Assembly: GCA_947493335.1 (NCBI GenBank)
Contig: CANLQO010000001.1
Span: forward strand, 1,426,001 to 1,490,000
Direction of reading: 5' to 3'
From: an uncultured Paracoccaceae bacterium
Lineage (GTDB): Bacteria; Pseudomonadota; Alphaproteobacteria; Rhodobacterales; Rhodobacteraceae
Length of the DNA: 64,000 nucleotides
Shown here: positions 5,363-33,805 of the stretch, one piece after another
How positions within the stretch are numbered: position 1 is the stretch's first letter
How the letters are laid out: each line of letters opens with the position of its first letter
Position numbers and translations under genes: made by a program
Notes under the pieces: model-generated
What the model was told of the DNA's origin: nothing
The model's input: the letters and a program-made list of their open reading frames with translations, nothing else
The model's database searches: none

Positions 5363-5528
5363 AGGTCGAAATATGAACAAAAGGTAAACATCGGTCAAGC
5401 CAGCGGTGAAATGGGGCGCAAATGGGGCCAAATGACCTGGCGTCAGGACGGAAATGGCCCGACCGGTGCCCTTTTTCCGCCCGGTTTCAAGGTCAAAACA
5501 AATTCAACACAAATTTTGGAGCTGCCTG

Positions 5529-5669
5529 ATGTCCCTGTTTTCTGATGTTACCTTTATGGAAATTTGTCTGACCCTCGTGACATTGGCTGTCGCGGAACGC
5601 GCCGTTCTGCCTTACCTGCCCAAAAGCCTTGTTGGCCCCAACGGCCTTTTGCTGAAAACCTCCAGCTAA
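5529..5669 (+). CDS. Possible 46-residue small protein
   Basis: A short open frame starting MSLFSDVTFMEICLTL, with one hydrophobic N-terminal half and a basic, proline-containing end. A weak GGAG lies seven bases before the ATG. Codon choice at third positions looks plausible for this genome. I do not recognise a family. It directly precedes the structured RNA region, so it could also be chance sequence at the edge of that RNA gene. Confidence 0.3.
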   Translation: MSLFSDVTFMEICLTLVTLAVAERAVLPYLPKSLVGPNGLLLKTSS

Positions 5670-5699
5670 ACCCTTGCCCTGCAAGACGTGCCCGCCTAC

Positions 5700-5880
5700 C
5701 TAAGTGTTCGGCGGGCTTCTGCTCTTCTCGTAAATTCCGGGGCTACATTCCAGTGGCCTTAAGCAAATCCGAGGGAGCTGGCTCTGTCTGAGCCCTGGTT
5801 CAGTTATCCGGCGCCCACCTGTATATACAGGTCCTCGGGAATAAGCCCCCAACGGTCGCTGCGGTTCCCGCCACTTTTTT
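5700..5880 (+). ncRNA. Structured non-coding RNA, candidate 6S RNA
   Basis: No convincing gene lies in 5670-5966, but the plus strand can fold into a long rod. GGCGGG (5710-5715) pairs with CCCGCC (5867-5872), GGGGCT (5739-5744) with AGCCCC (5844-5849), ATTC (5747-5750) with GAAT (5839-5842), and CCGAGG (5769-5774) with CCTCGG (5833-5838). Inside are a GGCTC/GAGCC hairpin and a perfect 16-base palindrome at 5817-5832. Six T residues follow the closing stem at 5875-5880, as at an intrinsic terminator. Length of about 170 bases, a closed double-ended rod and a central bubble resemble 6S RNA (ssrS). The identity is inferred, and the 5' end is approximate. Confidence 0.5.
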
Positions 5881-5966
5881 CCCGATCTGCACCGGCTTTG
5901 CCGTGCCGCACGCGGCACGCCGCAAGATCAGCGCCCGCCGCGGCAGCCTGTCAAATGCCGTACGGG

Positions 5967-6800
5967 TCAGATGTCCTGCCCGTTCATGAACCGCGCAGAG
6001 CCAAGCCCCAAGGCACGGCTAATATCTTCGAACATGCCATCAAAGGCAGCAAACATCGCTGCATTCAGGTCCTGACCGGCCTCTGTTTCGGAAAACGCGA
6101 TATAGGCGTCCAAATCTGCGTCCGATAGCGGTTGATATGCCAACATCAGGAATGAATAGACCCATTCGGTGGTGTTCACGCGGATCTCGGGCTCTTGGCT
6201 CCAGACGTCGGTCAGCACCTGTTCTTCGGTCAACTCCTGCGGCATCGCGCCGCCGTCCATCAGACCGGTGTAGAACGCGTAGTTGGAATTCATCGCGCCA
6301 ACCACGTTGGTTTCAACCAGATCATTGACTTCGACAAAGGATTTGACCTGCTGATAGCGATCAGTGTTGTCGAGCATCGCCTCGGTCGCCACCTCTTTGG
6401 CCGCTTCTTCCACCGCATCATCCAACAGGGCCCGGCGTGCGGACAATTCCAGCGAAATAATGGTCTTACCCGGCTCTGCGTTGAAAAAAGCCAGCATCGC
6501 GTCCACATCATCACCGGCCAGATTTTCGGTCAGCTCGGTCAGCACTTCGGTCCGCATCGCATCAACATCATAGATGTTGGACACGATGGTGCTCCATTCC
6601 GCGGAGGTGCGATCACCAAAAAGGTCGCTGCCAATCTCGGCACCATAGACGATCCCCTCTTCGCGCATGATCTGCAGCATGTCAGGCAGGCCAAGCGCCT
6701 CAAACAATGCCGCACTTTTTTCAGCCTCTGTCGTTTGCGCATCGGCAGTTGTGACGGAGAGCGCAAGCGCGATTGGGGCAAGTGAGCGGAGGTGGAACAT
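5967..6800 (-). CDS. DUF2059-type exported protein
   Basis: A 277-residue secreted or periplasmic protein. A signal peptide with an alanine-rich hydrophobic core ends near residue 21 (TTADA before QTT). The rest is mostly helical and acidic. The segment NLAGDDVDAMLAFFNAEPGKTI resembles the DUF2059 repeat (a short helix pair ending in a PxGK-like turn), and a second similar segment appears near the C-terminus (DADLDAYIAFSETEAGQDL). The function of the family is unknown. It is a single gene, with the RNA candidate beyond its 3' end. Confidence 0.75.
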   Translation of the reverse strand: MFHLRSLAPIALALSVTTADAQTTEAEKSAALFEALGLPDMLQIMREEGIVYGAEIGSDLFGDRTSAEWSTIVSNIYDVDAMRTEVLTELTENLAGDDVDAMLAFFNAEPGKTIISLELSARRALLDDAVEEAAKEVATEAMLDNTDRYQQVKSFVEVNDLVETNVVGAMNSNYAFYTGLMDGGAMPQELTEEQVLTDVWSQEPEIRVNTTEWVYSFLMLAYQPLSDADLDAYIAFSETEAGQDLNAAMFAAFDGMFEDISRALGLGSARFMNGQDI

Positions 6801-6947
6801 CTGGGGCGGTCCTTTGCTGTTGCCTTAGTGATATGTGTCCGGGCCCGGTTTTCCAAGGTGGCCCCACGGGAATGTCAGCGAAATGGTCAGATCGGGCTTG
6901 CGATGACCGCGCGGCGGGATTAAACGGCGCAGCGTTGACCCCCGTGC

Positions 6948-7037
6948 GGAGAGGTGCCGGAGTGGTCGAACGGGGCGGTCTCGAAAACCGTTGTGGGTGC
7001 AAGCCTACCCAGGGTTCGAATCCCTGTCTCTCCGCCA
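6948..7037 (+). tRNA. tRNA-Ser (CGA)
   Basis: A 90-base class II tRNA with acceptor GGAGAGG paired to the closing CTCTCC, anticodon loop CTCGAAA (CGA anticodon, reads TCG), a long variable arm, T-loop GGTTCGAATCC, discriminator G and encoded CCA. Confidence 0.96.
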
Positions 7038-7052
7038 GCATCCACCTGGAAG

Positions 7053-7790
7053 TTAAAGCGTTTGACGTCTGCGCCCGCGCAACCCCAGCGCGCCGAGGCC
7101 AAGAACCATCAGCGACAGGCTGGCGGGCAAGGGAACGACGGTAAGGTTGGCGACAGGAACAATCATCCCATAAAGGCCAACGGTGTCGGTTGTCGCCTCT
7201 GCTACCTGAAATTCGGACGCGAGTGTCGCACCGCCATCGCGCGAAAAGCCCAACAGCGTCATGGTGTAGTCGACACCATTGAAGCTGAAGAACTGCGGGG
7301 CGATGCCGCCGACGATCTTGGCAATATCCCCATCGGTGACCGGGTTGCCGGTGTTATTGGGAACGTTTTCGACCTCAATCGAGAAGTCAAAAGTGGCGAT
7401 GGTGTTGAGCGGGGACAGGATCTGAAGCGAAACGCTCAGATCAGCGCCGGTAAAGTCGTGACCGTAGACGCTGCCGTTGCGATAGCTCAGGTCGCCAAAG
7501 TGGAAAAGCGTATTGTCAGCAGCGCTCCAAGCCGGGTCACCGTCAGAGCCGACACCGTCAAAAGCCCAGAAGTTGTTGAAGGTCGTGCAACTGCTGCAAT
7601 TGGCCGTCTGGCCCCAAACGGCATAGGATTGGTCATAGAACGCGTTGCCCTGATCGTAGTTGAAAATCCCATAGCCAAAGCTGGCCTGCGGATTGGTCCA
7701 ATTGCCGACGGCGGTACCGCTGAAGGTCGCCGCCTGCGCCGCAGAACCGGCCAGAAACAGCGAAAGCGCAAGATACAGAATGGCACGCAT
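7053..7790 (-). CDS. VPLPA-CTERM sorting-domain exported protein
   Basis: A 245-residue secreted protein. It has an N-terminal signal peptide (about residues 1-20, ending AAQA) and a C-terminal sorting signal: the motif VPLPA, a hydrophobic LMVLGLGALGL stretch and an arginine cluster RGRRR. This is the VPLPA-CTERM class processed by an XrtD-type exosortase in Rhodobacterales. The start at 7790 is chosen over an upstream ATG because AAGGGG precedes it and the signal peptide begins there. The middle resembles aromatic-rich beta-sandwich surface proteins, but no named domain was recognised. The exosortase gene is not in this window. Confidence 0.8.
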   Translation of the reverse strand: MRAILYLALSLFLAGSAAQAATFSGTAVGNWTNPQASFGYGIFNYDQGNAFYDQSYAVWGQTANCSSCTTFNNFWAFDGVGSDGDPAWSAADNTLFHFGDLSYRNGSVYGHDFTGADLSVSLQILSPLNTIATFDFSIEVENVPNNTGNPVTDGDIAKIVGGIAPQFFSFNGVDYTMTLLGFSRDGGATLASEFQVAEATTDTVGLYGMIVPVANLTVVPLPASLSLMVLGLGALGLRGRRRQTL

Positions 7791-9257: not shown

Positions 9258-10154
9258 ATGACAGATGAGGTGGGCAAGGCGGTTGCGGTCTCTGACGGGG
9301 TCATCCGGGTGCGGGCCAACAACCCCTCGCCCATGACCTATACCGGCACCAATAGCTACATCATCGGCACCGACCACCTGAGCATCATCGACCCCGGCCC
9401 TGATCTGGCAGAGCATCGAGACGCCTTGCTGGCAGCGATCGCCGGGCGGCCTGTGACGCAGGTGATTGTGACCCACAGCCATCTGGATCATTCCCCGCTT
9501 GCCCGACCGCTGGCCGATACGCTGGAGTGCCCGGTTGTGGGTTTTGGCCCCAGCGACGCAGGCCGCAGCGCGGTGATGCAGGATCTGGCGGCCAGCGGTC
9601 TGGCTGGCGGCGGCGAAGGGGTCGACCAAAGCTTTGCCCCCGATCAGATCGTCGCGGATGGAGACACGCTGCCCGGTGGGATAGAGGTGCTGCACACGCC
9701 GGGCCATATGGGCAATCACATCGCGCTTGCCTGGCGAGGCGTGATGTTCAGCGGTGATCTGGTGATGGGTTGGGCAAGCTCTTTGGTTTCGCCGCCTGAC
9801 GGGGACCTGACTGACTTCATGGCGTCATGCAGGCGGCTGCGCGACCGGGCAGAGACGCTTTATCACGCAGGGCACGGTGATCCGATCCATGATCCTGCGG
9901 GGCGATTGGATTGGTTGATTTCGCACCGCGAAGCACGGTCGGATCAGATTGTTAAAGCATTGTCGGGTGGACCGATGACGGCCGATGCATTGACCGCCGC
10001 AATCTACACGGACGTCCCCCGCGCCATACATGGTGCAGCAGCGCGCAATGTCTTTGCCCATCTGGTTGATCTTTTGGGACGTGGTCTGGTCCAGCCGCAA
10101 GGCGCGATCGCGCAGGACTCGACATTTACGCTGATGGTGTCTGCCAAAGGGTGA
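9258..10154 (+). CDS. MBL-fold metallohydrolase (LACTB2-like)
   Basis: A 298-residue cytoplasmic hydrolase of the metallo-beta-lactamase fold. The metal-binding motif HSHLDH is at residues 73-78, with later ligands in TPGHMGNH and FSGDLVMG and a final AGHGDPI. A C-terminal winged-helix-like segment fits the LACTB2-type subgroup. ATG 9258 is chosen because GGAAAG precedes it; the open frame continues upstream into the divergent kinase promoter. The substrate is unknown; relatives act on thioesters, glyoxalase-type substrates or RNA. Confidence 0.85.
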   Translation: MTDEVGKAVAVSDGVIRVRANNPSPMTYTGTNSYIIGTDHLSIIDPGPDLAEHRDALLAAIAGRPVTQVIVTHSHLDHSPLARPLADTLECPVVGFGPSDAGRSAVMQDLAASGLAGGGEGVDQSFAPDQIVADGDTLPGGIEVLHTPGHMGNHIALAWRGVMFSGDLVMGWASSLVSPPDGDLTDFMASCRRLRDRAETLYHAGHGDPIHDPAGRLDWLISHREARSDQIVKALSGGPMTADALTAAIYTDVPRAIHGAAARNVFAHLVDLLGRGLVQPQGAIAQDSTFTLMVSAKG

Positions 10155-10157
10155 TTT

Positions 10158-10232
10158 TGGCTCCGGCGGTAGGGATCGAACCTACGACCAATTGATTAAC
10201 AGTCAACTGCTCTACCGCTGAGCTACGCCGGA
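10158..10232 (-). tRNA. tRNA-Asn (GTT)
   Basis: A 75-base tRNA on the minus strand: acceptor TCCGGCG pairs with CGCCGGA, the anticodon loop is CTGTTAA (GTT anticodon), the T-loop is GGTTCGATCC, discriminator G, with encoded CCA at 10158-10160. Confidence 0.96.
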
Positions 10233-10321
10233 ACACTCGGCGGTCTATAGCAATGCGATTCCGGGCCGTCCAGCCCGATTTTCCGATTTTTTCGGTGCCG
10301 CAGCGGCGGGCGTGATCTGCG

Positions 10322-10876
10322 TCACGTGGCCCATTTGATCGAACAGCCCATCGAGGGCGTTTGTGTGGCCGGTCCCTGCCCTGTCTGCGCGACCTGGCGC
10401 ATCGCATTCAAAAGATCGCGCGGAAGATCGCCGCGCACAGGGCCCGTGCGTCCGGCATCAAGCTGACCGCGATATTGCAGGCCGCCCGATGCGTTGAAGC
10501 CAAAGAAATCCGGCGTACAGACCGCACCATAGGCGCGGGCAACCGATTGGTCGGCATCATGCAGATAGGGAAAGGTGAAACCGTGGCGTTCGGCAAAAAG
10601 CACCATGTTGTCAAAGCTGTCCGCAGGATAGCTGCGCGCATCGTTCGAACAGATCGCGGCGACGCCGACGCCTGCGTCCTGCAAGGCACGCGCATCCAGC
10701 ACCAGACGGTCAATGATGGCGATCACAAAGGGGCAATGGTTGCAGATAAAGGCGATCAGCATGCCGTTTGGTCCCGCGATATCCTTGAGCGCATATGTCG
10801 TGCCATCGGTTGCGGGCAAAGAAAAGGCTGGTGCGGGCCAGTCAAAATCGCAGACAGGGGGTGTGTTCGCGGCCAT
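10322..10876 (-). CDS. Thioredoxin-fold peroxiredoxin-like protein
   Basis: A 184-residue protein of the AhpC/TSA-like thioredoxin family. The redox motif CNHCPF is at residues 45-50, after a beta strand (MLIAFI) typical of peroxiredoxin-like folds, and GAVCTPDFFGF supplies the cis-proline region. ATG 10876 (MAANTPPVCDF) is taken as the start; the same frame stays open upstream across the kinase gene, but that stretch is a shadow. No signal peptide is seen, so it acts in the cytoplasm, probably as a thiol oxidoreductase. The exact partner is unknown. Confidence 0.85.
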   Translation of the reverse strand: MAANTPPVCDFDWPAPAFSLPATDGTTYALKDIAGPNGMLIAFICNHCPFVIAIIDRLVLDARALQDAGVGVAAICSNDARSYPADSFDNMVLFAERHGFTFPYLHDADQSVARAYGAVCTPDFFGFNASGGLQYRGQLDAGRTGPVRGDLPRDLLNAMRQVAQTGQGPATQTPSMGCSIKWAT

Positions 10877-10976
10877 GGTGGAACCTTCTTGAAGTCCTGA
10901 TGACAACCTAGGGCGCTGGTGCGTTGATGGCCAGCGTCCGGAGTGCGCGTCATCTGCTTGAGACAGCGCATATGCG

Positions 10977-11552
10977 TTAATCGACCGAATGCCCAAGATC
11001 AAAGGCCGCACAGATTTGTGCTGCGACATCGTCGGCTGACAGTTCAGAGTTTTCGATGCGCAGGTAATGCGCGACATCAATCTCGTTCTGGGTCGAATTG
11101 AACCGATGCGCCTCTTCCACCTCGTGCATATGCTTTTCGGACCATGCAAGATCACGCTTGGTGGGTTTGCTGGCCAATCTGTTTGCACCGCGGTTGCGGC
11201 GCAGGCGTTCATCGAAGGGTGCTTCCAGTTCGACCCAATAGATATCATGCCCCGCCGCCTGAAACTGGTCCGAGATGCCTTGGAGATATTCCCGCTCACC
11301 GGGTTCATCAAAGGCCCAGACGAAGGTGAGGATATAGCCCCCGTCCTGATCCGCGGCAAAAGCCTGAAAGAACGCGCGCCGGATCTGGTGCACAAGATCG
11401 CGCCCCTCGCGCGTGCCGTAGTTGAAGAAGGGCGCGACCACCTCGATCGCGACGTGGTTGTGGAAAAGCTTGAAGCCTGTGCGCTTTTCAAGCGCCTGAC
11501 CAACGGTCATCTTTCCGACCGCCGGGGGGCCAATGATGAAGATCAAGGACAT
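10977..11552 (-). CDS. P-loop kinase-like ATPase
   Basis: A 191-residue cytoplasmic nucleotide-binding protein starting MSLIFIIGPPAVGKMT, with the Walker A loop at residues 8-15. The size and single P-loop at the extreme N-terminus match small AAA/shikimate-kinase-like proteins that phosphorylate small molecules. A longer start at 11588 is possible, but neither start has a good ribosome binding site; the family-like N-terminus decides. It is a single gene between two tRNA genes. The substrate cannot be inferred. Confidence 0.75.
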   Translation of the reverse strand: MSLIFIIGPPAVGKMTVGQALEKRTGFKLFHNHVAIEVVAPFFNYGTREGRDLVHQIRRAFFQAFAADQDGGYILTFVWAFDEPGEREYLQGISDQFQAAGHDIYWVELEAPFDERLRRNRGANRLASKPTKRDLAWSEKHMHEVEEAHRFNSTQNEIDVAHYLRIENSELSADDVAAQICAAFDLGHSVD

Positions 11553-23866: not shown

Positions 23867-25543
23867 TTACTCGGCTGGTGTGCCGACCGGATCAACCGTG
23901 ACCGAGGCCACACCGGCGGCATTGCGGCGGCCATCGTTCCAGATCGCCTTGATCAATGCCAGACACATCAGCGCCATCACGATCGAGAATGGCAGCGCGC
24001 CAATCACCATCGCCGTCTGAATGGCACCCGTCCCGCCCGAGATCAGCAAGCCGCCGACCACGAGTGCCAAGGCTGCACCCCAGAAAAGGATATGCGGACG
24101 CGCCTTGGGGCCTTCGTCACCGGCCGCGTTGATCGTGTTCACGATCAGCACAGCGGAGTCAGCCGAGGTCACAAGGAAGGTCATCAGAAGGACAACGATC
24201 ATCACCGCCATCCCCCAGGCCAGCACATCGCTGATGGGCGACAGCATGAACTCTGTCATGGCAAAGATCTTGTCGCCGTTGGCGGCATCCAGGATCAGCC
24301 CATTGGCGTCGCCGTTGAGTTCAAGATCAATCGCAGTGCCACCGGCCCAAGCGAACCAGACAAAGCACATCAACGACGGAACGATCATCGCGCCCAAGAC
24401 AAATTCCCGGATGCTGCGCCCGCGCGAGATGCGGGCCAGGAACAGGCCGACGAAGGGTGCGAATGCGATCCACCACGCCCAATAGAACACCGGCCACCAG
24501 CCCTGCCATTGCGTCAGCAGGAAGGCCTCGGAGCCTTCGACACCATCAGAGCTGTAGACGTTGAAGCTCAGCCCCGGCAGCGCGATCAGGTAATCCCAGA
24601 TGCCGATGAAGAAGGCCGATGCGCCAAAGAACGTCGCACCGAAGATGATGAAAAAGCCCAAAAGGACAATCGACAGCACCATGTTGATGTTCGACAGCCA
24701 TTTGATGCCCTTGCCAACACCTGACAGCGCCGAGAGCGTCGAGGCTCCCATGATCACCAGCAGGGCGACCACAATGCCAAGCGTTGTGGCAGAGCCATCT
24801 TCCATCGCCAGACCGCCAATCCCGATCCGGGTCAGGCCAGCGACAAACTGCTCAACACCGAAGCCAAGCGTCTGGGCCACACCCAGGATAGTCGCAACCA
24901 CCGCCACGATGTCGATGATGTGACCGGGCATGCCCGACAGCGACTTGCCAAAAAGCGGCGTCAGCGACGACCGGATCGTCAGTGGCAGACCGCGGCGATA
25001 GCTGAAGAACGCCAGCGCCAGACCGGCAATCGCATAACAGGCCCAGGCACCAAGCCCCCAGTGCAGATAGGACCAGACATAGGCGGTACGCACATTGTCG
25101 GCGTCAAGGGCCGTGGTAATGCCCTGAATGACCGAAGGGTTGTTCTTGAAGTGGGCCACCGGTTCGGCCACGGCCCAGGTCAACATGCCGACACCGATAC
25201 CGGCACCAAACATCATCGAGAACCATGAAAAGTTGGAAAATTCCGGCTTTTCACCATCCGCCCCAAGGTTCAGGCGACCCGCAGCGGGCCAAAGCGCCAA
25301 ACCAATGCACACGATGACAAATGCGGCCACGACCCAGATATACCAGGCCGCAAAACTGGCCAGAATGGCAGTGTTCCAGGCGCCCAGTACATTCCCGGCC
25401 TGCGTCGGCCAAACGATACACCAGACCACCAGCACACTGATGATGATCTTACTCACAACGGTCACATTGACGCTGAAACCACGGTAGAAACCGGCCTCTG
25501 CAGTCTTGATCGGAAGATCCGATAATGGAGGTTGAATCGACAT
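23867..25543 (-). CDS. BCCT-family betaine/DMSP-type transporter 1
   Basis: A 558-residue sodium- or proton-coupled carrier of the betaine/carnitine/choline family, with twelve predicted membrane helices. The glycine-rich segment FGAGIGVGMLTWA (about residues 105-117) and the family signature region WWPVFYWAWWIAFAPF are present, as is the conserved RISRGRSIREFVLG loop. The C-terminal tail is short, so BetP-like osmosensing is unlikely. ATG 25543 has AGGGAA upstream. It is divergent from a second BCCT gene. Substrates in this family include glycine betaine, choline, carnitine and DMSP. Confidence 0.92.
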   Translation of the reverse strand: MSIQPPLSDLPIKTAEAGFYRGFSVNVTVVSKIIISVLVVWCIVWPTQAGNVLGAWNTAILASFAAWYIWVVAAFVIVCIGLALWPAAGRLNLGADGEKPEFSNFSWFSMMFGAGIGVGMLTWAVAEPVAHFKNNPSVIQGITTALDADNVRTAYVWSYLHWGLGAWACYAIAGLALAFFSYRRGLPLTIRSSLTPLFGKSLSGMPGHIIDIVAVVATILGVAQTLGFGVEQFVAGLTRIGIGGLAMEDGSATTLGIVVALLVIMGASTLSALSGVGKGIKWLSNINMVLSIVLLGFFIIFGATFFGASAFFIGIWDYLIALPGLSFNVYSSDGVEGSEAFLLTQWQGWWPVFYWAWWIAFAPFVGLFLARISRGRSIREFVLGAMIVPSLMCFVWFAWAGGTAIDLELNGDANGLILDAANGDKIFAMTEFMLSPISDVLAWGMAVMIVVLLMTFLVTSADSAVLIVNTINAAGDEGPKARPHILFWGAALALVVGGLLISGGTGAIQTAMVIGALPFSIVMALMCLALIKAIWNDGRRNAAGVASVTVDPVGTPAE

Positions 25544-25814
25544 GAAACGTTCCCTGTTGGCTATTGTTATTGCGCTCAAGCCTAAGAGGCTGACGCATTA
25601 AGACAAGTTAAAACTCGGATTCGGGCTGTGGGTGTCGCTGACGTGGGTGGCAGCGCGCCAAAGTGTCTCAAAAAATGACGCATCCGGAACATAAGACGGT
25701 TCAAAACGTCCGTTTAGCACAGGATTTGACACTACCCTGCCGCCACCGGCCACTGGACTGGCCGCAAGGGGCACATGCGATGCGCGCCCCTCCAAAATGA
25801 AAGGAACAGGGAAT

Positions 25815-27659
25815 ATGGCCATCAAGGAACCATTTACCGATCTGGAAATCGCAAAGGCCCCGCAGGGGTTCTATGAGGGGTATAGCCTGCCCATTGCGTT
25901 GATTTCCAAAGGCATCATGATTGCGCTTGTGCTTTGGGCGCTGATCTGGCCGCTGAGTGCCAACGGACAGCTCGACGCCTGGAACTGGGCGTTGCTCCAA
26001 GGCTGGAACACCTTCTACATCATTTCGGTCGGGGTTTTTGCCTTTTTCCTCGTCGCGATCGCGATCATGCCGACGGGACGGCGCAAGCTTGGCGGTCCCG
26101 ACACCCGCCCCGAATTTTCAAACTTCTCTTGGTTTTCGATGATGTTCGGCGCGGGTCTGGGCGTTGGCCTGATGGTTTTTGCTACGGCCGAACCGCTTGG
26201 TCTTTGGGGGTCAAACCCAGAGGTCGTATCCGGTGCTGTGGCAGGCAACAGCGAAGAGGCGCTGACGTCAGCCTTCCGCTACACATTCCTGCACTACGGA
26301 TTTCACGCTTGGGCCATCTATGTGGTGACCGGGCTTAGCCTTGCGTATTATGCCTATACCCGTGACATGCCACTCACGATCCGCTCGGCGCTGACGCCAT
26401 TGCTGGGTCGGTTGGCCAACGGCTTTGTCGGACATATCGTCGATGTGCTTGGCGTTGTCGCCACGATCCTTGGCGTCTCTGTCACCATCGGCTTTGGCGT
26501 CAGCCAGTTCGTTGATGGCGTTTATGCAGTCACCGGGATGGAATGGCTGATGTCTGTCACCGACGGCGACACACCACCCGCACCATCGACAGTGGGCCTG
26601 CTTTCGGCGCTTGGGGTGATCATGTTGCTCTCGATCATCTCGGCGGTGTCGGGCGTGGGTCGGGGGATCAAGTATCTGTCGAACCTCAATCTGGTGCTGT
26701 CAGTGATCCTGCTGATGACTTTTGTATTCTTTGGATCATTCGTCTTTGCAATGACTACCTATGCCACCGCATTCGTCGACTACATCATCCAGTTTTTCGC
26801 CCTGAGCTTTGAGGCCCACGCACCACTGAGTGCGGACGCCTTTGCGGCGAACCTGCCGGAAGAGGCCGCGCCATTGGCCGGTGATCTGATGGCCGGGGCC
26901 ACCAATGCCTGGGGCTCGCTGGAGGGCTTTAGCTCGGGTCTGGAAGGCGACGCTGCTGCCCTGTCACCTGAAGTGCAGGCCGCCGCATATGAGGCGGGGA
27001 CTCAAGGCCGTCTCTTTGGCTGGCAATCCGGCTGGACCACGTTCTACTGGGCATGGTGGATCGCGTTCTCACCTTTTGTGGGCCTATTCCTCGCACGTAT
27101 CTCCAAGGGCCGCACGGTCCGCGAATTCGTGCTGGGCTGCATGATTGCACCGGCTTTGGTGTGTTTTGCATGGATGACAATTCTGGGCGGCACTGCGATT
27201 GATCTGGAATTGTCGGGGGTTGCCGAAGGCACCATCATCGGGGCCAGCAACACCAACAAGCTGTTCGTGACATTGGGCCACATGATTTCCGGCGGGTTCC
27301 TGTCCGCCATCACGGTGATGTGCGTGGTGCTGATTATGACTTTCCTTGTGACGTCAGCGGACTCGGGCATCCTGGTGATGAACACGATCATGTCCGGTGG
27401 TGAGCAGGAAACCGGCGTCAAGCACCGGATCATCTGGGGTCTCATCATGACGGGCGTGATTGGTGCGCTCATCATTGCGGGCAATTCAGGGGCTGCGGCA
27501 AACCCGCTTGATAGCCTGCAGGATGCGATGATTATCGGGGCCCTGCCCTTTACCATTGTGATGGTCTTGATGGTGATCTCGCTGATCAAGGCGATGTATA
27601 ACGACGGGCGTCGCGACAAGGCCGGGATGACCACCGGCTCGGCGCAGCCAGCGGCGTAA
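25815..27659 (+). CDS. BCCT-family betaine/DMSP-type transporter 2
   Basis: A 614-residue BCCT carrier with the exact signature GWTTFYWAWW and the loop RISKGRTVREFVLG. The glycine motif reads FGAGLGVGLMVFATAEPLG. Compared with the first carrier it has an extra loop of about 60 residues (around 335-400) rich in alanine and acidic residues before the signature. ATG 25815 follows GGAACAGGG. It is divergent from BCCT 1 and converges on acuI-dmdA, separated by a strong terminator. The DMSP-degradation genes next door make DMSP a reasonable but unproven substrate. Confidence 0.92.
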   Translation: MAIKEPFTDLEIAKAPQGFYEGYSLPIALISKGIMIALVLWALIWPLSANGQLDAWNWALLQGWNTFYIISVGVFAFFLVAIAIMPTGRRKLGGPDTRPEFSNFSWFSMMFGAGLGVGLMVFATAEPLGLWGSNPEVVSGAVAGNSEEALTSAFRYTFLHYGFHAWAIYVVTGLSLAYYAYTRDMPLTIRSALTPLLGRLANGFVGHIVDVLGVVATILGVSVTIGFGVSQFVDGVYAVTGMEWLMSVTDGDTPPAPSTVGLLSALGVIMLLSIISAVSGVGRGIKYLSNLNLVLSVILLMTFVFFGSFVFAMTTYATAFVDYIIQFFALSFEAHAPLSADAFAANLPEEAAPLAGDLMAGATNAWGSLEGFSSGLEGDAAALSPEVQAAAYEAGTQGRLFGWQSGWTTFYWAWWIAFSPFVGLFLARISKGRTVREFVLGCMIAPALVCFAWMTILGGTAIDLELSGVAEGTIIGASNTNKLFVTLGHMISGGFLSAITVMCVVLIMTFLVTSADSGILVMNTIMSGGEQETGVKHRIIWGLIMTGVIGALIIAGNSGAAANPLDSLQDAMIIGALPFTIVMVLMVISLIKAMYNDGRRDKAGMTTGSAQPAA

Positions 27660-27724: not shown

Positions 27725-28708
27725 TTAGGCGTTGACGTCCACGACGACCCGGCCCTTGACCTGACCTTTGAGGATATCGCGCCCCAGCCCCGGCAGGTCG
27801 GCCAAAGTGGCGGGTTGCACCATTGCTTCCAGCTTGTCCATTGGCAGATCCTTGGCGATGCGGTCCCAGGCGCGCAAGCGGTTGTCATAGGGCTGCATCA
27901 CGCTGTCGATGCCCAGCAGGTTCACACCGCGCAGCAGAAACGGAATGACCGTCGCGGGAAGACCCGCACCACCGGCCAGACCCACGGCAGAAACACTGGC
28001 ACCGTATTTCATCTGGCCCAGCAGCCGCGCAAGCATCTCGCCTCCCACCGCATCGACACAGCCGCCCCATGTCTCAGCTTCAAGCGGGCGCTTGGTTGTC
28101 TCGTTAAGCTCTTCGCGCGGGACGATCCGGGTCGCACCGAGCCCGGTCAGGTAATCAGCAGTTTCAGGCCGCCCGGTGACGGCAGCGACCTCATGCCCCA
28201 GATTGGCGATGATCGCGGTGGCGACCGACCCCACGCCACCGGCGGCACCGGTGACCAGCACCGGGCCGTCCTTGATCCCATGATCCTCAAGCGCCATGAC
28301 AGCCAGCATCGCGGTAAAACCTGCCGTGCCCACGGCCATGGCCTGCCGCGTGGTGATGCCGTCGGGCAAGGGCACCAGCCAATCGGCCTTGACCCGCGCC
28401 TTTTGCGCATAGCCGCCCCAGTGCGCCTCGCCCACGCGCCAGCCAGTCAGAACGACCTTGTCGCCGGGTTTGTAGCGGGCATCATCCGACGCCTCGACCG
28501 TACCGGCAAAATCGATGCCCGGCACATGCGGATAGTTGCGGACCAGACCGCCACCGGGGCCGATGCACAGCCCGTCCTTGTAGTTCACGGTGGAATAATC
28601 GACAGCAACGGTCACGTCACCTTCTGGCAGTTGATCGGTGTCGATTTCCTGCACCGCTGCCGCGGTCTTGCCCTCTTCATCCTTGGTCACAACCAATGCG
28701 TTAAACAT
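27725..28708 (-). CDS. acuI: Acrylyl-CoA reductase (NADPH)
   Basis: A 327-residue medium-chain reductase of the AcuI family, which reduces acrylyl-CoA to propionyl-CoA in DMSP and acrylate metabolism. The NADPH-binding loop GAAGGVG is at residues 154-160, and DYSTVNYKDGL and PGIDFAGTV mark the quinone-oxidoreductase-like N-terminal domain. ATG 28708 follows AAGGGAAAAG. It is 81 bases downstream of dmdA on the same strand, the arrangement known from Ruegeria pomeroyi, where both are induced by DMSP-derived compounds. It detoxifies acrylate-derived acrylyl-CoA. Confidence 0.88.
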   Translation of the reverse strand: MFNALVVTKDEEGKTAAAVQEIDTDQLPEGDVTVAVDYSTVNYKDGLCIGPGGGLVRNYPHVPGIDFAGTVEASDDARYKPGDKVVLTGWRVGEAHWGGYAQKARVKADWLVPLPDGITTRQAMAVGTAGFTAMLAVMALEDHGIKDGPVLVTGAAGGVGSVATAIIANLGHEVAAVTGRPETADYLTGLGATRIVPREELNETTKRPLEAETWGGCVDAVGGEMLARLLGQMKYGASVSAVGLAGGAGLPATVIPFLLRGVNLLGIDSVMQPYDNRLRAWDRIAKDLPMDKLEAMVQPATLADLPGLGRDILKGQVKGRVVVDVNA

Positions 28709-28789
28709 CTCTTTTCCCTTCATCCGGGGCCTTTGCCCCTGCTTTGTCCGGCCGGTCCGCGCATCCAAAATGGGCGGGGCGGCCAGACG

Positions 28790-29890
28790 TTAAATCCAAA
28801 ACGTCTCGTTCACGATCGCCGGGAAAACCCCGGCCTGTGTCACCACATCCACATCTGTGGCCGGGTCCCAATGGGTCATGCGGATCATCCCAATGGCGAC
28901 GTTGGTTTCAAAATCGGGGCTATAGGCGGCAGAGGTGATCTGCCCCACCTGATCCTGCCCGTCCATCACCGGCCAAACCCGATCACAAGGCGGCAGATCG
29001 CCTTCGATCCGTACACCCCGGATTTCCTTGACCGGCCCGTCTTTTGACACCCTGAGCAATGCATCGCGGCCGACACAGCCAATTGCCGTCTGGGTCGAAC
29101 AGAAGCGCCCAAGCCCGCATTCATGTGGCGTATTCTCGCGGGTCATGTCATTGCCGTAGCTCAGCAGTCCGCCCTCGATCCGCTCAATCAGGTTGGGACA
29201 TCCGGCGTGGACATCCAGATCCTTGCCCGCTTCAAACAGCGCGTTCCAAAGCGGCATGCCGTGTTCGCTGCCCTCGCAATAAATTTCGAACCCGCCTTGT
29301 TTGGAATAGCCCGACCGCGCGATGGCGAATTGCGTGCCCTGAAAGTCGAACATGCCAAAGCGAAAGAACCTCAGCGCGCGCACGCCCGCGCCAAAGACCC
29401 GCTCCATCAGGTCATCGGCCAGTGGCCCCTGTACGGCAAGGGGCGAAACATCAGGCTCATCCACCAAAACGTCCAAGCGATACCCATAGGCCAACCCTTT
29501 GACCCAAAACAGCAAATCACTGTCAGCAATCGAAATCCACCAGCGGTCATCTGCCAGTTTCAGCCCCACCGGGTCATTCAGCATGCCGCCGGTTTCATCG
29601 ACGATCGGCAGATAAAAGCACTGCCCCGGTAGCATCCCACGCAGATCACGCGGGGTCAGCATCTGCATCAGACGGGCGCTATCAGGGCCGCGCAGCTCCA
29701 CCTGTCGTTCGACCGCAACGTCCCAAACCTGCACAGCAGATTTCAGATGGTGATAATCCTCGACCACTGACCGGAACACGGTGGGCAGCAGCATGTGGTT
29801 ATAGACCGTGTAGGCCTTGACCCCGGCGGCTTCGACACCGTCGGAAAAAGGCGTGCGCCGGGTCCGGCGCGATGGGGCGATCAGGGCCAT
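28790..29890 (-). CDS. dmdA: Dimethylsulfoniopropionate demethylase (DmdA)
   Basis: A 366-residue GcvT-fold enzyme that transfers a methyl group from DMSP to tetrahydrofolate, giving methylmercaptopropionate. Family text includes AYTVYNHMLLPTVF, ERQVELRGPDSARLMQM, FYLPIVDETGGMLNDPV and RSGYSKQGGFEIY, with the folate-binding Glu in the last segment. These fit DmdA better than glycine-cleavage T protein. It starts one base after the dinB-type gene and precedes acuI. A neighbouring GcvT-like paralogue with another methyl donor cannot be fully excluded, but the acuI linkage supports DMSP. Confidence 0.85.
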   Translation of the reverse strand: MALIAPSRRTRRTPFSDGVEAAGVKAYTVYNHMLLPTVFRSVVEDYHHLKSAVQVWDVAVERQVELRGPDSARLMQMLTPRDLRGMLPGQCFYLPIVDETGGMLNDPVGLKLADDRWWISIADSDLLFWVKGLAYGYRLDVLVDEPDVSPLAVQGPLADDLMERVFGAGVRALRFFRFGMFDFQGTQFAIARSGYSKQGGFEIYCEGSEHGMPLWNALFEAGKDLDVHAGCPNLIERIEGGLLSYGNDMTRENTPHECGLGRFCSTQTAIGCVGRDALLRVSKDGPVKEIRGVRIEGDLPPCDRVWPVMDGQDQVGQITSAAYSPDFETNVAIGMIRMTHWDPATDVDVVTQAGVFPAIVNETFWI

Positions 29891-29891
29891 C

Positions 29892-30395
29892 TTAGTCCTC
29901 TGGCATGATAAAGAGATCGGTATCGTCAGGCTTTTGGCCTGCCGCGGTCAGCATCGCGTGGATTTGCCCGCGATGATGGGTTTGGTGGTTGAAAAAATGC
30001 GCGACACAGCGGCCCACCGGTCGGATCATGTCCCGTCCCATCGCGCCAGAGAACCACGACATTTCACCCACCAGATCAAGCGCCGATAGCTCGGCAGCCC
30101 AGCTTTTGATCCGGCCATCAGTACGAAACCGCGCGGCCCACCAATCGCTGATGGTGGCTGTGTGGTTCACGCTGTCCTTGATGCTGGTGGTCGGTCCTTC
30201 GCCGCCGTCAAAGCGGCTCATCCAAAGCTGATCCGCCCACAACACATGGTTCAGTGTGGCCCGGATTGACCCAAAGAACGCGCCACGGTCCTGATCAAGG
30301 TCCGCCGCAGCCATTGCATCAACAACTTGCCATATCGCATTGTTTTGCCACGCATTATAGCGCGCCATCACGCGACAATACTCGGGTGTGATCAT
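29892..30395 (-). CDS. DinB-family protein
   Basis: A 167-residue four-helix DinB/YfiT-type protein. The metal-binding histidines are visible: His50 in LNHVLWAD, and His137 and His141 in FNHQTHHRGQ. ATG 30395 overlaps the DUF1326 stop by four bases, and dmdA starts one base after its own stop, so it is tightly embedded in the operon. DinB-fold enzymes include thiol-dependent S-transferases, which would fit a sulfur-compound operon, but no reaction is known for this one. Confidence 0.85.
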   Translation of the reverse strand: MITPEYCRVMARYNAWQNNAIWQVVDAMAAADLDQDRGAFFGSIRATLNHVLWADQLWMSRFDGGEGPTTSIKDSVNHTATISDWWAARFRTDGRIKSWAAELSALDLVGEMSWFSGAMGRDMIRPVGRCVAHFFNHQTHHRGQIHAMLTAAGQKPDDTDLFIMPED

Positions 30396-31102
30396 ATCCG
30401 TCCGGGCCCGCCCCAATGCACGGGGATGATGTCCCCGGATTTCCCTTCAAAGTCCCAGACGCGACCATAGTCGCGCACCTTGGATTTCAAACCAATGGCG
30501 GGGTAAATCGTTGGCCCCATCCAGTATTGCGTGTTTTGCATCGACACAGGCGTGTCGGGGTCTTTGCCTTGGATCATCTCGATCTCACCCTGAATTTTGC
30601 GCCCCACGATGATCCGGCGGCGGCGCCCATCCTTTTCGATGATGACCTTTTCACGCTCAGCGCCCAAAATTTCGGACACCAGAAAGTTGAAGACGCCGGT
30701 GTTGCCGCCGGCCTGCCCGGACAGGATCTGCAACAAACCGTTATAGGCCTTACCAGTGGCCTTTTCATCGACATAAGCCGCGACTTTCCAGTTCCCTTCG
30801 GCCATCCGCCCGGGGATGTCGATCAGCAGTGCGACGTTCAGACCGCCAAGGTTCTCGCCCTCAAAATGGCCCTCGTCGATCTGCATCGCAAACCATGTCT
30901 GGCAATAGCCATAGGTGGGCGGATGCTGGCCCAAAGAGATCCCGCAAGGGCACACAACCTCACACGAGCAATTCATGAAAAGCTCGCCCTTCAACTCCCA
31001 CTCGGTCGGGCGCATCTTGCGGCGCTTGGGATTGTCCATCCGCTGGTCGATCCGCTGCGAAATCGGCAGGCGGTCACTCGGTGCGCGTTTCTTATCAGCC
31101 AT
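30392..31102 (-). CDS. DUF1326 protein
   Basis: A 236-residue cytoplasmic protein of the DUF1326 family. The diagnostic cysteine cluster is Cys45, Cys47, Cys51 and Cys53 in FMNCSCEVVCPCG, suggesting metal binding. The remainder, with GNWKVAAYVDEKATG and QYWMGPTIYPAIG, also follows the family. The N-terminal 30 residues are basic and variable. AAAGG precedes the ATG. It is 13 bases after the DUF2182 gene, a common partner as I recall, and overlaps the dinB-type gene. Function unknown. Confidence 0.85.
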   Translation of the reverse strand: MADKKRAPSDRLPISQRIDQRMDNPKRRKMRPTEWELKGELFMNCSCEVVCPCGISLGQHPPTYGYCQTWFAMQIDEGHFEGENLGGLNVALLIDIPGRMAEGNWKVAAYVDEKATGKAYNGLLQILSGQAGGNTGVFNFLVSEILGAEREKVIIEKDGRRRRIIVGRKIQGEIEMIQGKDPDTPVSMQNTQYWMGPTIYPAIGLKSKVRDYGRVWDFEGKSGDIIPVHWGGPGRI

Positions 31103-31115
31103 TTAAGAGCCTTTC

Positions 31116-31892
31116 CTAAAGTGAGGTGACGGCCAGCGCCACACCAGATGCAATCAGTAGATATCCCATGGGCCGCGTCACGCGGTGGCCAATCTGGGGC
31201 AGTTTTTCAAGAACCATGAACAATGTCGCCAGCCCCATCCACGCAAGGTTCATCACCCCACCGACAAAGCCAAGCGCCATGAACCCCCAGCAGCAGGCAA
31301 AACAGAACAGCCCAAGCCCCAGCCCCATGCGCGCGCCGCCCAGAAAGCCCGTGCGCCAATGACCAAGGAAATACGAAATCGGCGCGTGGCAGACGCCGTG
31401 GCAGACCTCTTTTGTCCGCGTGAACTGGAACGCGCCGACCACGACCAACAACCCGGCTTGCAACCAGACGGACGTCGCACGGCCCAACATGTCGATCACG
31501 CCGCCAAACAGCAGCAGAATTTGCGCGCCCGCCAATAGGGCCGCGGCACCGATCCAGACAAGGAAATAGCCCAGCAAGACGCCCAGCCACCCAGCCCGGC
31601 TGCCGTTCGCGCTGCCCATCAGCCCTTCGTAGGTTGTCAGCGTTGGCACCATCGTCGGCAACATCATCGCCGCCATCATGATCGCCCACATCGTGAAAAC
31701 CGGCCCAAACCGCGCCATCGGCATGTCCATCGGCATCCGTGGGTCCATGGCGGCCATCGCCTGCCCCATGGCGCCGGGACGGCCCAGCAGATCAAGGTCC
31801 ATGTCCAGCGCCATGACATACATCATCCACCACGCCACAAGGATCACGCCGAAAAAGGCGAGCCAGAGCGTGGATCGGACCATGTGATGCAT
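31116..31892 (-). CDS. DUF2182 membrane protein
   Basis: A 258-residue integral membrane protein of the DUF2182 family (predicted metal-binding membrane proteins), with about seven hydrophobic segments. A methionine-rich stretch (residues 42-59, including MDPRMPMDMPM) and a CHGVCH motif could bind copper-type metals; this is inference. ATG 31892 (MHHMVRS) has a strong GGGAGGA site upstream and is preferred to an earlier in-frame start. It heads the run DUF2182-DUF1326-dinB-dmdA-acuI and is divergent from the GntR regulator. Confidence 0.82.
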   Translation of the reverse strand: MHHMVRSTLWLAFFGVILVAWWMMYVMALDMDLDLLGRPGAMGQAMAAMDPRMPMDMPMARFGPVFTMWAIMMAAMMLPTMVPTLTTYEGLMGSANGSRAGWLGVLLGYFLVWIGAAALLAGAQILLLFGGVIDMLGRATSVWLQAGLLVVVGAFQFTRTKEVCHGVCHAPISYFLGHWRTGFLGGARMGLGLGLFCFACCWGFMALGFVGGVMNLAWMGLATLFMVLEKLPQIGHRVTRPMGYLLIASGVALAVTSL

Positions 31893-31934
31893 CGCGCGCT
31901 CCTCCCAAAGCGACTCAGACCTTGCCAAATCAAA

Positions 31935-31958
31935 TGTCAGACTTTTAAATGTCTGACA
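31935..31958. promoter_or_regulatory. Two-site GntR-type operator
   Basis: TGTCAGAC (31935-31942) and GTCTGACA (31951-31958) form a perfect inverted repeat around TTTTAAAT. Each arm is also part of a small palindrome of the form TGTC-N-GACA, typical of FadR-group GntR operators (GT-N3-AC). It lies between the divergent DUF2182 and gntR starts and ends one base before the gntR ATG, so bound repressor could block both promoters. Confidence 0.7.
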
Positions 31959-31959
31959 A

Positions 31960-32688
31960 ATGAAAATTGACCCCGATAGCCCTGCGGATCTGTCCGCTCA
32001 GATCGCAAAGTCCATTCGCGACGCGATTGTGTCTGGAACCCTGCGCGTCGATGACCGCCTGCCGTCAGAGGCGGAACTGGCCGAGCAATTCGAAGTGAGC
32101 CGTTCGACCGTGCGCGAAGCGCTCAAGCGGCTGGGCGCGCAAAGCCTGATCCGCACCCAACGCGGCGCGACCGGCGGGGCCTTTGTCAACAAGCTGACCT
32201 ACCCTGAAGCTTACGGCCAGCAGATCACCACCGCCACGCTGTTGCTCAGCATGAATGCCGTCAGCTTCACCACCGCCTGCGAGGCACGATATGCGCTGGA
32301 ACGCGCCTGTGCGCCGCTTTCAGCGCAGCGCCGGACGGCGGATCATCTGGCCACCATGCGGGCCGAAGCGCACCGGCAGGCGCAACCGGGCCTGACGGAC
32401 GAGGCGTTTTGCGCCAGCGACGTGGCCTTTCACCGCGCCCTTGTTGATGCGGCAGGCAACCCGGTGCTGTCCTATCAGCTTGCCGGGGCGGTTGAGGCGA
32501 TGCAGCCGTTGATGAACATGATCACATTTACCGCGCGGTCGCGGGAAACCATCGTGGCCCTGCACGGCGCCATCGCAGACGCGCTTGATGCGCAGAACGC
32601 CGAAGAAACCGACGCAAAGCTTGCAGAATTGGCGAGTTATACCAACGCACTGGCGCAAAGCGTCTTTGCCGCGCGGCAAAAGGCCTGA
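31960..32688 (+). CDS. FadR-group GntR transcriptional regulator
   Basis: A 242-residue regulator with an N-terminal winged helix (about residues 10-75; LPSEAELAEQFEVSRSTVREAL is the recognition region, cut here at its key residues PSEAELA and SRSTVREALK) and a C-terminal all-helical FCD ligand-binding domain with the metal-site-like DVAFHRALVDAAGNP. No ribosome binding site precedes the ATG and the operator abuts it, so the mRNA may be leaderless. It is divergent from the DUF2182-to-acuI run and co-directional with the binding protein. In Ruegeria pomeroyi a GntR regulator next to dmdA-acuI controls them, which supports the same job here. Confidence 0.88.
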   Translation: MKIDPDSPADLSAQIAKSIRDAIVSGTLRVDDRLPSEAELAEQFEVSRSTVREALKRLGAQSLIRTQRGATGGAFVNKLTYPEAYGQQITTATLLLSMNAVSFTTACEARYALERACAPLSAQRRTADHLATMRAEAHRQAQPGLTDEAFCASDVAFHRALVDAAGNPVLSYQLAGAVEAMQPLMNMITFTARSRETIVALHGAIADALDAQNAEETDAKLAELASYTNALAQSVFAARQKA

Positions 32689-32761: not shown

Positions 32762-33805
32762 ATGAACCTCAAGACCCTGCTGGGCGCAGGCAGCCTGATC
32801 GCGCTGTCCTCTGCCGTGTCTGCTCAGGATGCTGAGCTGCTTGTTTTCGACTATCCGGGCTTTGAAGACCCCGCCTATCACGCCGGTTACGTCGAGACAC
32901 ATGGCGACAGCCCGACGTTTTCGTTCTTTGGTGACGAAGACGAGGCGTTCCAGAAGATCCGTTCCGGCTTTCAGGCGGACGTGGCGCATATCTGCGCGGG
33001 CTCTGTGACGAAATGGGCCGAAAGCGGCATTCTGGACGCTTGGGACATCAGCAAGATCCCGGCCTACGCCGACGTGGACAGCAACCTCAAGGGCACCGAT
33101 GTGGGCTCTGACGGTCCGGTTTACTGGATCCCCACCGACTTTGGCTCGACCGCCATCGCCTATAACCCAGAAGAGGTCCCGGCAGAGGATGTCGCCAGCC
33201 TCGACGTCTTCAAGAACCCCGCATACGCCGGTCGCCTGACGATGCCCGACAACGTCGATGACGCCTATGCGCTGGCCTATCTGGCCACCGGTGTCGACGA
33301 TTGGACCAATGCCACGGATGAGCAGTTTGAGGCGGCATCCCAGTGGCTCCGCGACGTGCATCCGAACCTGCGCACCTATTGGGTAGACCCTGCCGAACTG
33401 GCGCAGCTTTTGTCGTCAGGTGAAGTTCTGGTCAGCTGGGCCTGGAACGAAACCTACCCCACCATGCTGGACGAAGGCCGCCCGATTGCCTTCCAACGTG
33501 CCGCCTCCGAGGGGTCATCGCTTTGGCTCTGTGGTTACGTGAATCTGGCCGAAGGTCAGGGCGTGGAAGACAAGGCCTATGACTATATCAACGCGATGCT
33601 GGCACCTTCTTCGGTGATGCCTTTGCTGGACGCGGGCTATGGCTCTGCCAATGCGGTGGCGCTGAACGCACAGGTCGGGGCCGAGGATCTGGCGATTGCC
33701 GGGTTGGAGCCGCTGGACGTGCCGCTGCTGGCGCAGATGCCGATGAGCAATGCCGCGCGCGAGCGTCAGGCAGAGACGTTTGAACTGATCAAATCGGGTT
33801 TCTGA
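32762..33805 (+). CDS. PotD-like periplasmic binding protein, no permease nearby
   Basis: A 347-residue periplasmic solute-binding protein of the spermidine/putrescine (PotD/PotF) type. The signal peptide ends near residue 21 (AVSA before QDA). The mature part shows the FSFFGDEDEAFQKIRSGF and YWIPTDFGSTAIAYNPEEV segments of this family and a C-terminal MSNAARERQAETFELIKSG. GGGAG precedes ATG 32762. It lies 73 bases after gntR, but no ABC permease or ATPase genes follow; a terminator comes 19 bases after the stop. It must work with components elsewhere. The ligand is unknown. Confidence 0.85.
   Translation: MNLKTLLGAGSLIALSSAVSAQDAELLVFDYPGFEDPAYHAGYVETHGDSPTFSFFGDEDEAFQKIRSGFQADVAHICAGSVTKWAESGILDAWDISKIPAYADVDSNLKGTDVGSDGPVYWIPTDFGSTAIAYNPEEVPAEDVASLDVFKNPAYAGRLTMPDNVDDAYALAYLATGVDDWTNATDEQFEAASQWLRDVHPNLRTYWVDPAELAQLLSSGEVLVSWAWNETYPTMLDEGRPIAFQRAASEGSSLWLCGYVNLAEGQGVEDKAYDYINAMLAPSSVMPLLDAGYGSANAVALNAQVGAEDLAIAGLEPLDVPLLAQMPMSNAARERQAETFELIKSGF

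Follow-up and report, generated by a model that had tools for sequence, protein, structure and literature searches.

DMSP is a major sulfur compound of the ocean, and the fork between its demethylation and its cleavage has been much studied, largely in Ruegeria pomeroyi. A GntR gene presumably adjoins the dmdA-acuI genes of R. pomeroyi DSS-3. The accessible portions of the literature report that these two genes are induced by acrylate and DMSP but not by MMPA (PMC3338564), that a 222-bp region upstream of dmdA is responsive to acrylate as well as DMSP (PMC7181598), and that dmdA lies in a conserved operon (Gonzalez et al. 2019, as cited by PMC7487153); GntR as a word was not found in PMC3338564. 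A second point of reference is PpoB2 of Marinomonas mediterranea, whose known job, according to the accessible text of PMC2855505, is to supply one enzyme rather than to serve general copper homeostasis. The Pfam family PF09948 (DUF2182) owes its current label, 'PpoB2, copper chaperone', to this protein, which moves copper to tyrosinase.

Organization of the operon and its regulatory region

The window (the whole 64,000-nucleotide stretch of DNA that was analysed) contains five minus-strand genes separated by 13, -4, 1 and 81 bases, an arrangement that the original prediction described and that we confirmed with the gene starts used here. The first encodes a DUF2182 helical membrane protein (31116..31892, minus strand, ATG start), which matches PF09948 at 190.5 bits (cut-off 28.7) over positions 1-187 of the 188-position profile. 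It is followed by genes for a DUF1326 protein (30392..31102, minus strand; PF07040, 167.9 bits against a cut-off of 25), with which it forms what we call the pair, and for a DinB-fold protein (29892..30395, minus strand; PF05163, 91.2 bits). The fourth gene, dmdA (28790..29890, minus strand), encodes a true DMSP demethylase by its score of 660 bits against NF009133 (cut-off 410), and the second-best dmdA match within the source genome is 41% identical. The terminal gene, acuI (27725..28708, minus strand), lies directly 3' of dmdA and belongs to the YhdH/AcuI family of acrylyl-CoA reductases (TIGR02823, 444.5 bits, cut-off 297.25), while scoring slightly below the cut-off of the narrower AcuI equivalog NF051456 (421.6 bits against 440). 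No copper enzyme was found within the operon itself by profile searches. A BCCT transporter gene (25797..27659, plus strand; PF02028) is convergent with acuI and is a common, not constant, neighbour of the operon in relatives. At the other end, a gene for a PotD-like solute-binding protein (32762..33805, plus strand; PF13343, with NF007048 below its cut-off) adjoins gntR, as it does in a minority of relatives, and is regarded as outside the core.

As had also been predicted, a divergent gene for a FadR-group regulator, with GntR helix-turn-helix and FCD domains (31960..32688, plus strand; PF00392 and PF07729), faces the operon over an operator-like repeat. This candidate GntR operator, located between the GntR gene and DUF2182 (31935..31958), is a single perfect 8-8-8 inverted repeat, TGTCAGAC-TTTTAAAT-GTCTGACA. 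The inverted repeat had no matches over 100 shuffles of the window, and no second copy of TGTCAGAC-N8-GTCTGACA with up to 3 mismatches and the 8-base spacer was found in the 4.05 Mb genome. Across related loci, the repeat is present upstream of gntR in 158 of 171 with at most three substitutions (exact in 98), and no exact copies away from gntR were found among the loci scanned. Loci that lack the pair have the same repeat between gntR and dmdA, exact in L140 and L178. Within the operon, a consensus scan for promoter-like sites on the minus strand gave none inside dinB, which ends 1 base before dmdA; its sole hit on that strand, a count at chance level, lies inside dmdA, ~180 bases before acuI. 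There are six minus-strand terminator-like sites in the stretch, one of which is the operator repeat itself. We consider it very probable that these genes form one co-regulated unit.

Conservation across Rhodobacteraceae

Gene linkage was surveyed across 295 Rhodobacteraceae genomes, one per genus. At a cut-off of E 1e-100, which admits some lower-scoring relatives that are possibly not true DmdA, dmdA was present in 125 genomes, and a DUF1326 gene was encoded on the same strand no more than 2.5 kb upstream in 99 of these (96 of 114 for higher-scoring DmdA only), contig-end loci being retained in the counts. DUF2182 adjoined DUF1326 in 97 of the 99 dmdA-linked loci, while DinB was present in 53 and is an optional member. 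The three genes are therefore not rare or random neighbours of dmdA, a possibility on which the original prediction could have foundered, and the five-gene linkage is conserved far beyond chance. Among the 80 loci in named records nearest to the DUF1326 of the window, which are close relatives by selection and come partly from the same genomes as the survey set, 70 contain dmdA and 63 have the full order GntR-DUF2182-DUF1326-(DinB)-dmdA-acuI. When scored by presence in 287 genomes (8 of the 295 were excluded for DUF1326 of unknown type), type-1 DUF1326, defined as at least 200 bits against a profile built in this analysis and thus dependent on that cut-off, occurred with dmdA in 106 genomes; 29 had only the pair, 19 only dmdA and 133 neither. 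This corresponds to an odds ratio of 26, whose significance is indicative only because genera are not independent.

Passive linkage, in which the genes are neighbours only through inheritance of the locus as a chromosomal block, would also generate recurrent neighbourhoods, and flanking clusters do recur: those that we take from sequence likeness to be photolyase, CFA synthase and SspB occur in 63, 59 and 39 of 103 loci, respectively. None of these flanks recurs as regularly as the adjacency of DUF2182 and DUF1326 (97/99), although this comparison is rough, reflecting fetched length and loose clustering, and a larger cluster (81/103) has the look of an antisense frame. The unit also survives rearrangement, with acuI and gntR diverging from each other in L233 and L243, copies on plasmids, and a unit in genome G133 that lies 54 kb from dmdA and still has acuI with the pair. 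Given this, and the conservation of the operator-like repeat across loci, we regard passive linkage as highly improbable.

The distribution of the pair also corrects the original view that it is specific to DMSP demethylation. Of 135 genomes, 115 have the pair close to acuI, versus 99 close to dmdA, and it remains beside acuI in 25 of the 29 pair-bearing genomes without dmdA; on the DUF1326 tree, dmdA undergoes 24 changes versus 16 for acuI. Nineteen of the 125 dmdA genomes have no type-1 pair and a further seven have it away from dmdA, with only G133 and G006 among these seven having it beside acuI. The pair is thus needed for neither dmdA nor acuI. Neither acuI nor dmdA adjoins the nearest relatives found outside the family, which are 49-53% identical and come from four genomes.

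Predicted functions of the accessory proteins

The DUF2182 proteins feature invariant Cys (164, 168, 197, 200 and 201) and Met residues (68, 72, 76, 77 and 205) in 205/205 distinct sequences above 200 bits, a count that excludes short or low-scoring copies such as those of L233 and L243. We infer from these conserved soft-metal ligands that DUF2182, which is modelled with confidence by AlphaFold2 (pLDDT 93.5), is a predicted copper-binding protein, PpoB2 itself being outside the alignment. DUF1326 has five invariant cysteines (C45, C47, C51, C53 and C67; 211 distinct type-1 sequences) and is tentatively predicted to adopt an acetoacetate-decarboxylase-like barrel, a fold search having returned 12 matches with E values of 0.001 or lower. 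Such a fold would raise the prospect that DUF1326 is an enzyme in which the Cys cluster replaces the catalytic lysine, acting on a reactive by-product of DMSP or acrylate, with DUF2182 as its membrane partner or exporter. Acetoacetate decarboxylase works through a Schiff-base lysine, but no lysine was found among the columns of DUF1326 that are at least 95% conserved (47 type-1 sequences), so this chemistry would be unavailable. In addition, the TM-scores of the fold matches are low (0.25-0.46), and the cysteines are also retained in type-2 DUF1326 proteins outside the operon, a pattern that looks like metal binding. An enzymatic role is therefore rather unlikely.

DinB features both the family profile and a histidine triad, with H50 in 131/131 and H137 and H141 each in 130/131 distinct sequences above 90 bits. 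This triad is a mark of DinB/YfiT metal-dependent thiol transferases, and thiol transfer is its putative activity.

On balance, these features favour a role for the DUF2182-DUF1326 pair in handling a metal. Of the earlier suggestion that the accessory proteins may handle a metal, thiol or methylated-sulfur by-product, the metal part has gained weight from membership of the PpoB2 family and the invariant Cys and Met residues. Some distant DUF1326 genes are found near copC and a metal-sensitive regulator (Mycobacterium gallinarum), a four-helix copper-binding protein (Chroococcidiopsis) or, ~2.3 kb away, a tyrosinase gene (Caballeronia); elsewhere, the examined surroundings of the pair show no obvious relation to copper.

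Possible recipients of copper

If the pair handles copper, it could deliver it to one periplasmic or membrane copper enzyme of DMSP or acrylate growth. Copper transfer by PpoB2, which is described in the accessible text of PMC2855505 as reaching PpoB1 specifically, to the exclusion of other copper oxidases, provides a precedent. However, no recurrent copper-enzyme neighbour was recognised in either the 103 dmdA loci or the 36 type-1 loci that lie apart from dmdA, where the first residues of the 30 largest neighbour clusters per set were inspected visually, and delivery to a single enzyme other than methanethiol oxidase appears unlikely.

Methanethiol oxidase itself (MtoX, SBP56), the remover of DMSP-derived methanethiol, is another candidate recipient, as it requires copper (PMC5739008, in its accessible part). 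Its co-occurrence with the pair is mixed. Across the 287 genomes, SBP56 is encoded in 75 of 135 with the type-1 pair and 23 of 152 without it (odds ratio 7), and among genomes lacking dmdA it is found in 9 of 29 with the pair and 13 of 133 without (p 0.006). SBP56 also ends the pMaD9 cluster of Marinovum algicola (GntR-DUF2182-DUF1326-ligase-dmdA-acuI-SBP56) and lies ~3 kb from dmdA in G048. In dmdA genomes, however, where methanethiol is expected, SBP56 is similarly frequent with the pair (66/106) and without it (10/19; p 0.45), and the overall association may stem from both accompanying dmdA. SBP56 is absent from 40 pair-bearing dmdA genomes and from 20 of the 29 pair-bearing genomes without dmdA, and in G071 it directly follows dmdA with no pair present. 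Furthermore, MtoX loci often have SCO1/SenC and MauG genes of their own, as far as the accessible text of PMC5739008 describes them. Supply of MtoX by the pair is thus very unlikely. We tentatively suggest that the pair serves copper homeostasis rather than one named enzyme.

Discussion

The protein sequences and gene order are compatible with an acrylate/DMSP-responsive operon that carries a pair for handling a soft metal, probably Cu(I), although this combined reading is offered with caution. GntR would repress the operon and release it when acrylate or acryloyl-CoA appears; AcuI would then remove acryloyl-CoA, while DmdA would divert DMSP into demethylation. Because acrylate, acryloyl-CoA and methanethiol may disturb the thiol pool, which is the cellular Cu(I) buffer, cells that produce them would also make a pair that sequesters or relocates copper, with Cu(I) bound and moved by DUF2182, as a PpoB2-type membrane protein, and its five-Cys partner DUF1326. 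This link between thiols and copper is reasoning, and is the most likely reason for the partnership. DinB, where present, may act as a thiol-dependent enzyme on the electrophile, since the wider DinB family includes such enzymes. More broadly, and speculatively, copper or soft-metal handling could be a built-in, acrylate-regulated part of Rhodobacteraceae DMSP catabolism, acting as a relay or sink to shield thiol chemistry during the processing of acrylate and methanethiol; that this relay or sink consists of a PpoB2-type membrane protein together with a barrel protein of a new, five-Cys type is a similarly conjectural proposal. DMSP breakdown may therefore bring its own metal-handling equipment in most of the surveyed dmdA-bearing genera and, if this is true, copper could affect DMSP processing by ocean bacteria.

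Like the R. pomeroyi DSS-3 operon, the operon of the window has dmdA and then acuI on one strand. It is unlike that operon, as described in the accessible text of PMC3338564, where DUF2182, DUF1326 and DinB are not named, in having these three genes before dmdA and behind an operator-like repeat. Judging from its 222-bp promoter, dmdA of R. pomeroyi seems to be directly behind the promoter, with no pair in front. If most dmdA genera carry the pair behind the same operator, this model strain would be the exception, the pair genes should be considered when mutants and expression are studied in other genera, and a testable biological setting would exist for two protein families whose function is barely known or unknown.

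The window shares with the ppoB1-ppoB2 tyrosinase operon of Marinomonas mediterranea a member of the PpoB2/COG5486 membrane copper-transfer family (PMC2855505, accessible text), but has no tyrosinase, a DUF1326 partner and the setting of a DMSP/acrylate operon. The order GntR-DUF2182-DUF1326-dmdA-acuI is also found on pMaD9 of Marinovum algicola DG 898 (CP010864.1), which differs in having an acyl-CoA ligase gene between DUF1326 and dmdA and SBP56 after acuI. The products in this record are named 'Transmembrane protein involved in DMSP breakdown' and 'protein involved in DMSP breakdown', the basis not being given, so the DMSP link has not gone wholly unnoticed. For the module, originally put forward as the best candidate for an undescribed one, no description was found in the DMSP literature searched (DUF1326/DUF2182/PpoB2, dmdA-acuI, and DMSP with copper or DinB), as far as its accessible text goes and with DUF words possibly invisible to search; the label in CP010864.1 qualifies this status, as may the conserved dmdA operon of Gonzalez et al. 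2019, in which these genes could already be described. Outside Rhodobacterales, acuI and dmdA are not annotated beside the pair, similarity is lower and DUF1326 comes first in 9 of 10 units (one is divergent). These two-gene DUF1326-DUF2182 units of actinobacteria, rhizobia, Burkholderiales and haloarchaea, annotated as adjacent in 10 of 15 regions, nevertheless place the same families side by side.

The operon and its neighbourhood

The minus strand of the window encodes, in order of transcription, DUF2182 (PF09948; 31116-31892), DUF1326 (PF07040; 30392-31102), a DinB-fold protein (PF05163; 29892-30395), the DMSP demethylase gene dmdA (NF009133, 660 bits; 28790-29890) and the acrylyl-CoA reductase gene acuI (TIGR02823; 27725-28708), with intervening gaps of 13, -4, 1 and 81 bases. 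Coordinates and profile searches bore out the predicted arrangement, in which these five genes face a divergent plus-strand GntR/FCD gene (PF00392 and PF07729; 31960-32688). AcuI scores just under the stricter equivalog model (421.6 vs 440 bits), while PF09948 is currently named 'PpoB2, copper chaperone' in Pfam. Two neighbouring BCCT transporter genes (23867-25546 and 25797-27659) adjoin acuI. BCCT genes, which could serve in DMSP or betaine uptake, are also repeatedly found beside this operon in relatives.

Conservation of the DUF2182-DUF1326 pair

A survey of 295 Rhodobacteraceae genomes, one per genus, identified dmdA in 125 (E-value of 1e-100 or better). Neighbourhoods of up to 15 kb were searched with profiles made from hits to the window proteins, and gene order was then read. 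In 99 of these 125 genomes (96/114 when restricted to higher DmdA scores), DUF1326 lay no more than 2.5 kb 5' of dmdA and in the same orientation. Among these 99 loci, part of which stop at contig edges, DUF2182 adjoined DUF1326 in 97, acuI followed dmdA in 88, gntR was divergent in 79 and DinB was present in 53. The rare and random linkage that would have refuted the original prediction was not seen, and DinB is an optional member. One DinB homologue (locus L226, 6617-7105) lacks two of the three triad histidines, the NHQTHHRGQ region reading NQQADLRAQ in alignment A3, and is perhaps a degenerate copy.

Of the 26 dmdA genomes without upstream DUF1326, seven carry a type-1 pair (DUF1326 scoring at least 200 bits with our profile) elsewhere and 19 carry none. 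Across 287 genomes, eight of unknown DUF1326 type having been left out, 106 have both pair and dmdA, 29 the pair only, 19 dmdA only and 133 neither. A second set took, from at least 589 loci in named records (Ruegeria, Roseovarius, Yoonia, Sulfitobacter, Shimia, Tateyamaria and others), the 80 whose DUF1326 is closest to that of the window. In these close relatives by selection, which share some genomes with the first set, the full GntR-2182-1326-(DinB)-dmdA-acuI arrangement occurs in 63/80 and dmdA in 70/80.

The pair is not specific to DMSP demethylation: in the 29 genomes with a type-1 pair and no dmdA, DUF2182 is always adjacent (29/29) and acuI is no more than 3 kb away in 25; two of the other four pairs are at contig ends. 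Counting one locus per genome (n = 135), acuI is near the pair in 115 and dmdA in 99, and an unrooted FastTree phylogeny of DUF1326 shows 16 presence changes for acuI, 24 for dmdA and 31 for DinB. Thus, acuI is a steadier partner of the pair than dmdA. In genome G133, dmdA has no other operon gene nearby, and a cluster made up of the pair, DinB, acuI and a BCCT gene is found 54 kb from it; G009 and G199 show gntR followed by the pair, with acuI divergent from gntR. Neither gene is an absolute partner, since acuI is absent downstream in 11 of the 99 dmdA operons (e.g. loci L110, L136 and L150) and five of the seven displaced pairs lie beside neither gene (one near a contig end, four in genomes with a low-scoring dmdA only). 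The dmdA-less 2182-1326-acuI-BCCT cluster of G216 has a cupin DMSP lyase gene (contig C13, 78006-78476) at a distance of approximately 7 kb.

The closest DUF1326 relatives found beyond the family (49-53% identity; four genomes, among 23 in the class that carry DUF1326) have neither acuI nor dmdA alongside. Recruitment of the pair into the acuI/dmdA unit therefore probably took place inside Rhodobacteraceae; the unrooted tree does not separate gain from loss. DUF2182 lies just 5' of DUF1326 in two of these relatives, G462 and G335 (same genus), with a partial match in G315 and none just upstream in G325. Some genomes (loci L250, L251, L253 and L255) have a single stretch that combines two type-2 DUF1326 genes with either one or two copies of DUF2182; there DUF1326 leads, the opposite of the operon order.

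Regulation

A perfect inverted repeat, TGTCAGAC-TTTTAAAT-GTCTGACA, lies directly 5' of gntR (31935-31958). It had no matches in shuffled versions of the window and, when its 8-base spacer was included in the pattern, no second site genome-wide at up to three mismatches. Of 171 partly non-independent loci (genomes being common to the named and unnamed sets), 158 carry the repeat upstream of gntR at three substitutions or fewer; equally loose matches occur in 816 of 13652 ordinary stretches of 280 bases. The copy is exact in 98 of the 171, and every exact copy in the scanned loci adjoins gntR. Loci without the DUF genes, such as L140 and L178, have an exact copy between gntR and dmdA. A further exact copy ahead of dmdA or acuI was not observed. 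We infer GntR binding to this candidate operator, and a signal for its release. PMC3338564 gives DMSP and acrylate, and not MMPA, as inducers of dmdA and acuI in R. pomeroyi. Consensus scanning found promoter-like sites at chance level, including a minus-strand site within dmdA ahead of acuI, and eight terminator-like sites against 4.0 expected. Transcription may therefore also start internally or terminate in part.

Possible function of the pair

A soft-metal role is favoured by the strict Cys/Met pattern, by kinship with PpoB2 and by the copper-related genes that adjoin some distant relatives. Co-occurrence was used to examine two client hypotheses. Methanethiol oxidase (MtoX, also SBP56; PF05694), present in 101/295 genomes, accompanies the pair in 75/135 genomes versus 23/152 without it, and among dmdA-less genomes in 9/29 versus 13/133 (p = 0.006). 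This link is absent among genomes with dmdA, in which methanethiol should arise (66/106 with the pair, 10/19 without). Cupin DMSP lyases (PF16867) occur in 67/135 versus 55/152 genomes overall, and in 52/106 versus 10/19 dmdA genomes. By reasoning, we prefer a reading in which the pair would provide metal and thiol protection while acrylate and DMSP are broken down, because acrylate chemistry (acuI and the acrylate-induced R. pomeroyi promoter) is the most constant theme.

In the window's own genome, an SBP56 gene and a dmdA-like paralogue (41% identity to DmdA) are approximately 4 kb apart (contig C1, 1396784-1402870, approximately 23-29 kb ahead of the window start), and contig 3 carries a second SBP56 copy. 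In locus L161 (genome G071), an SBP56 match begins approximately 70 bases past dmdA on the same strand, and neither the DUF pair nor acuI was found nearby.

Comparison with Marinovum algicola pMaD9

Literature searches found no paper describing a link between the DUF pair and DMSP; Gonzalez et al. 2019, outside their coverage, is cited in PMC7487153 for a conserved dmdA operon. A depositor did notice the link, since a Marinovum record names the two products 'Transmembrane protein involved in DMSP breakdown' and 'protein involved in DMSP breakdown'. On pMaD9 (locus L264), SBP56 is immediately behind acuI, a GcvT-type gene lies 3' of gntR, and between DUF1326 and dmdA stands an acyl-CoA ligase gene, a candidate DmdB (4853-7288 and 9620-11221).
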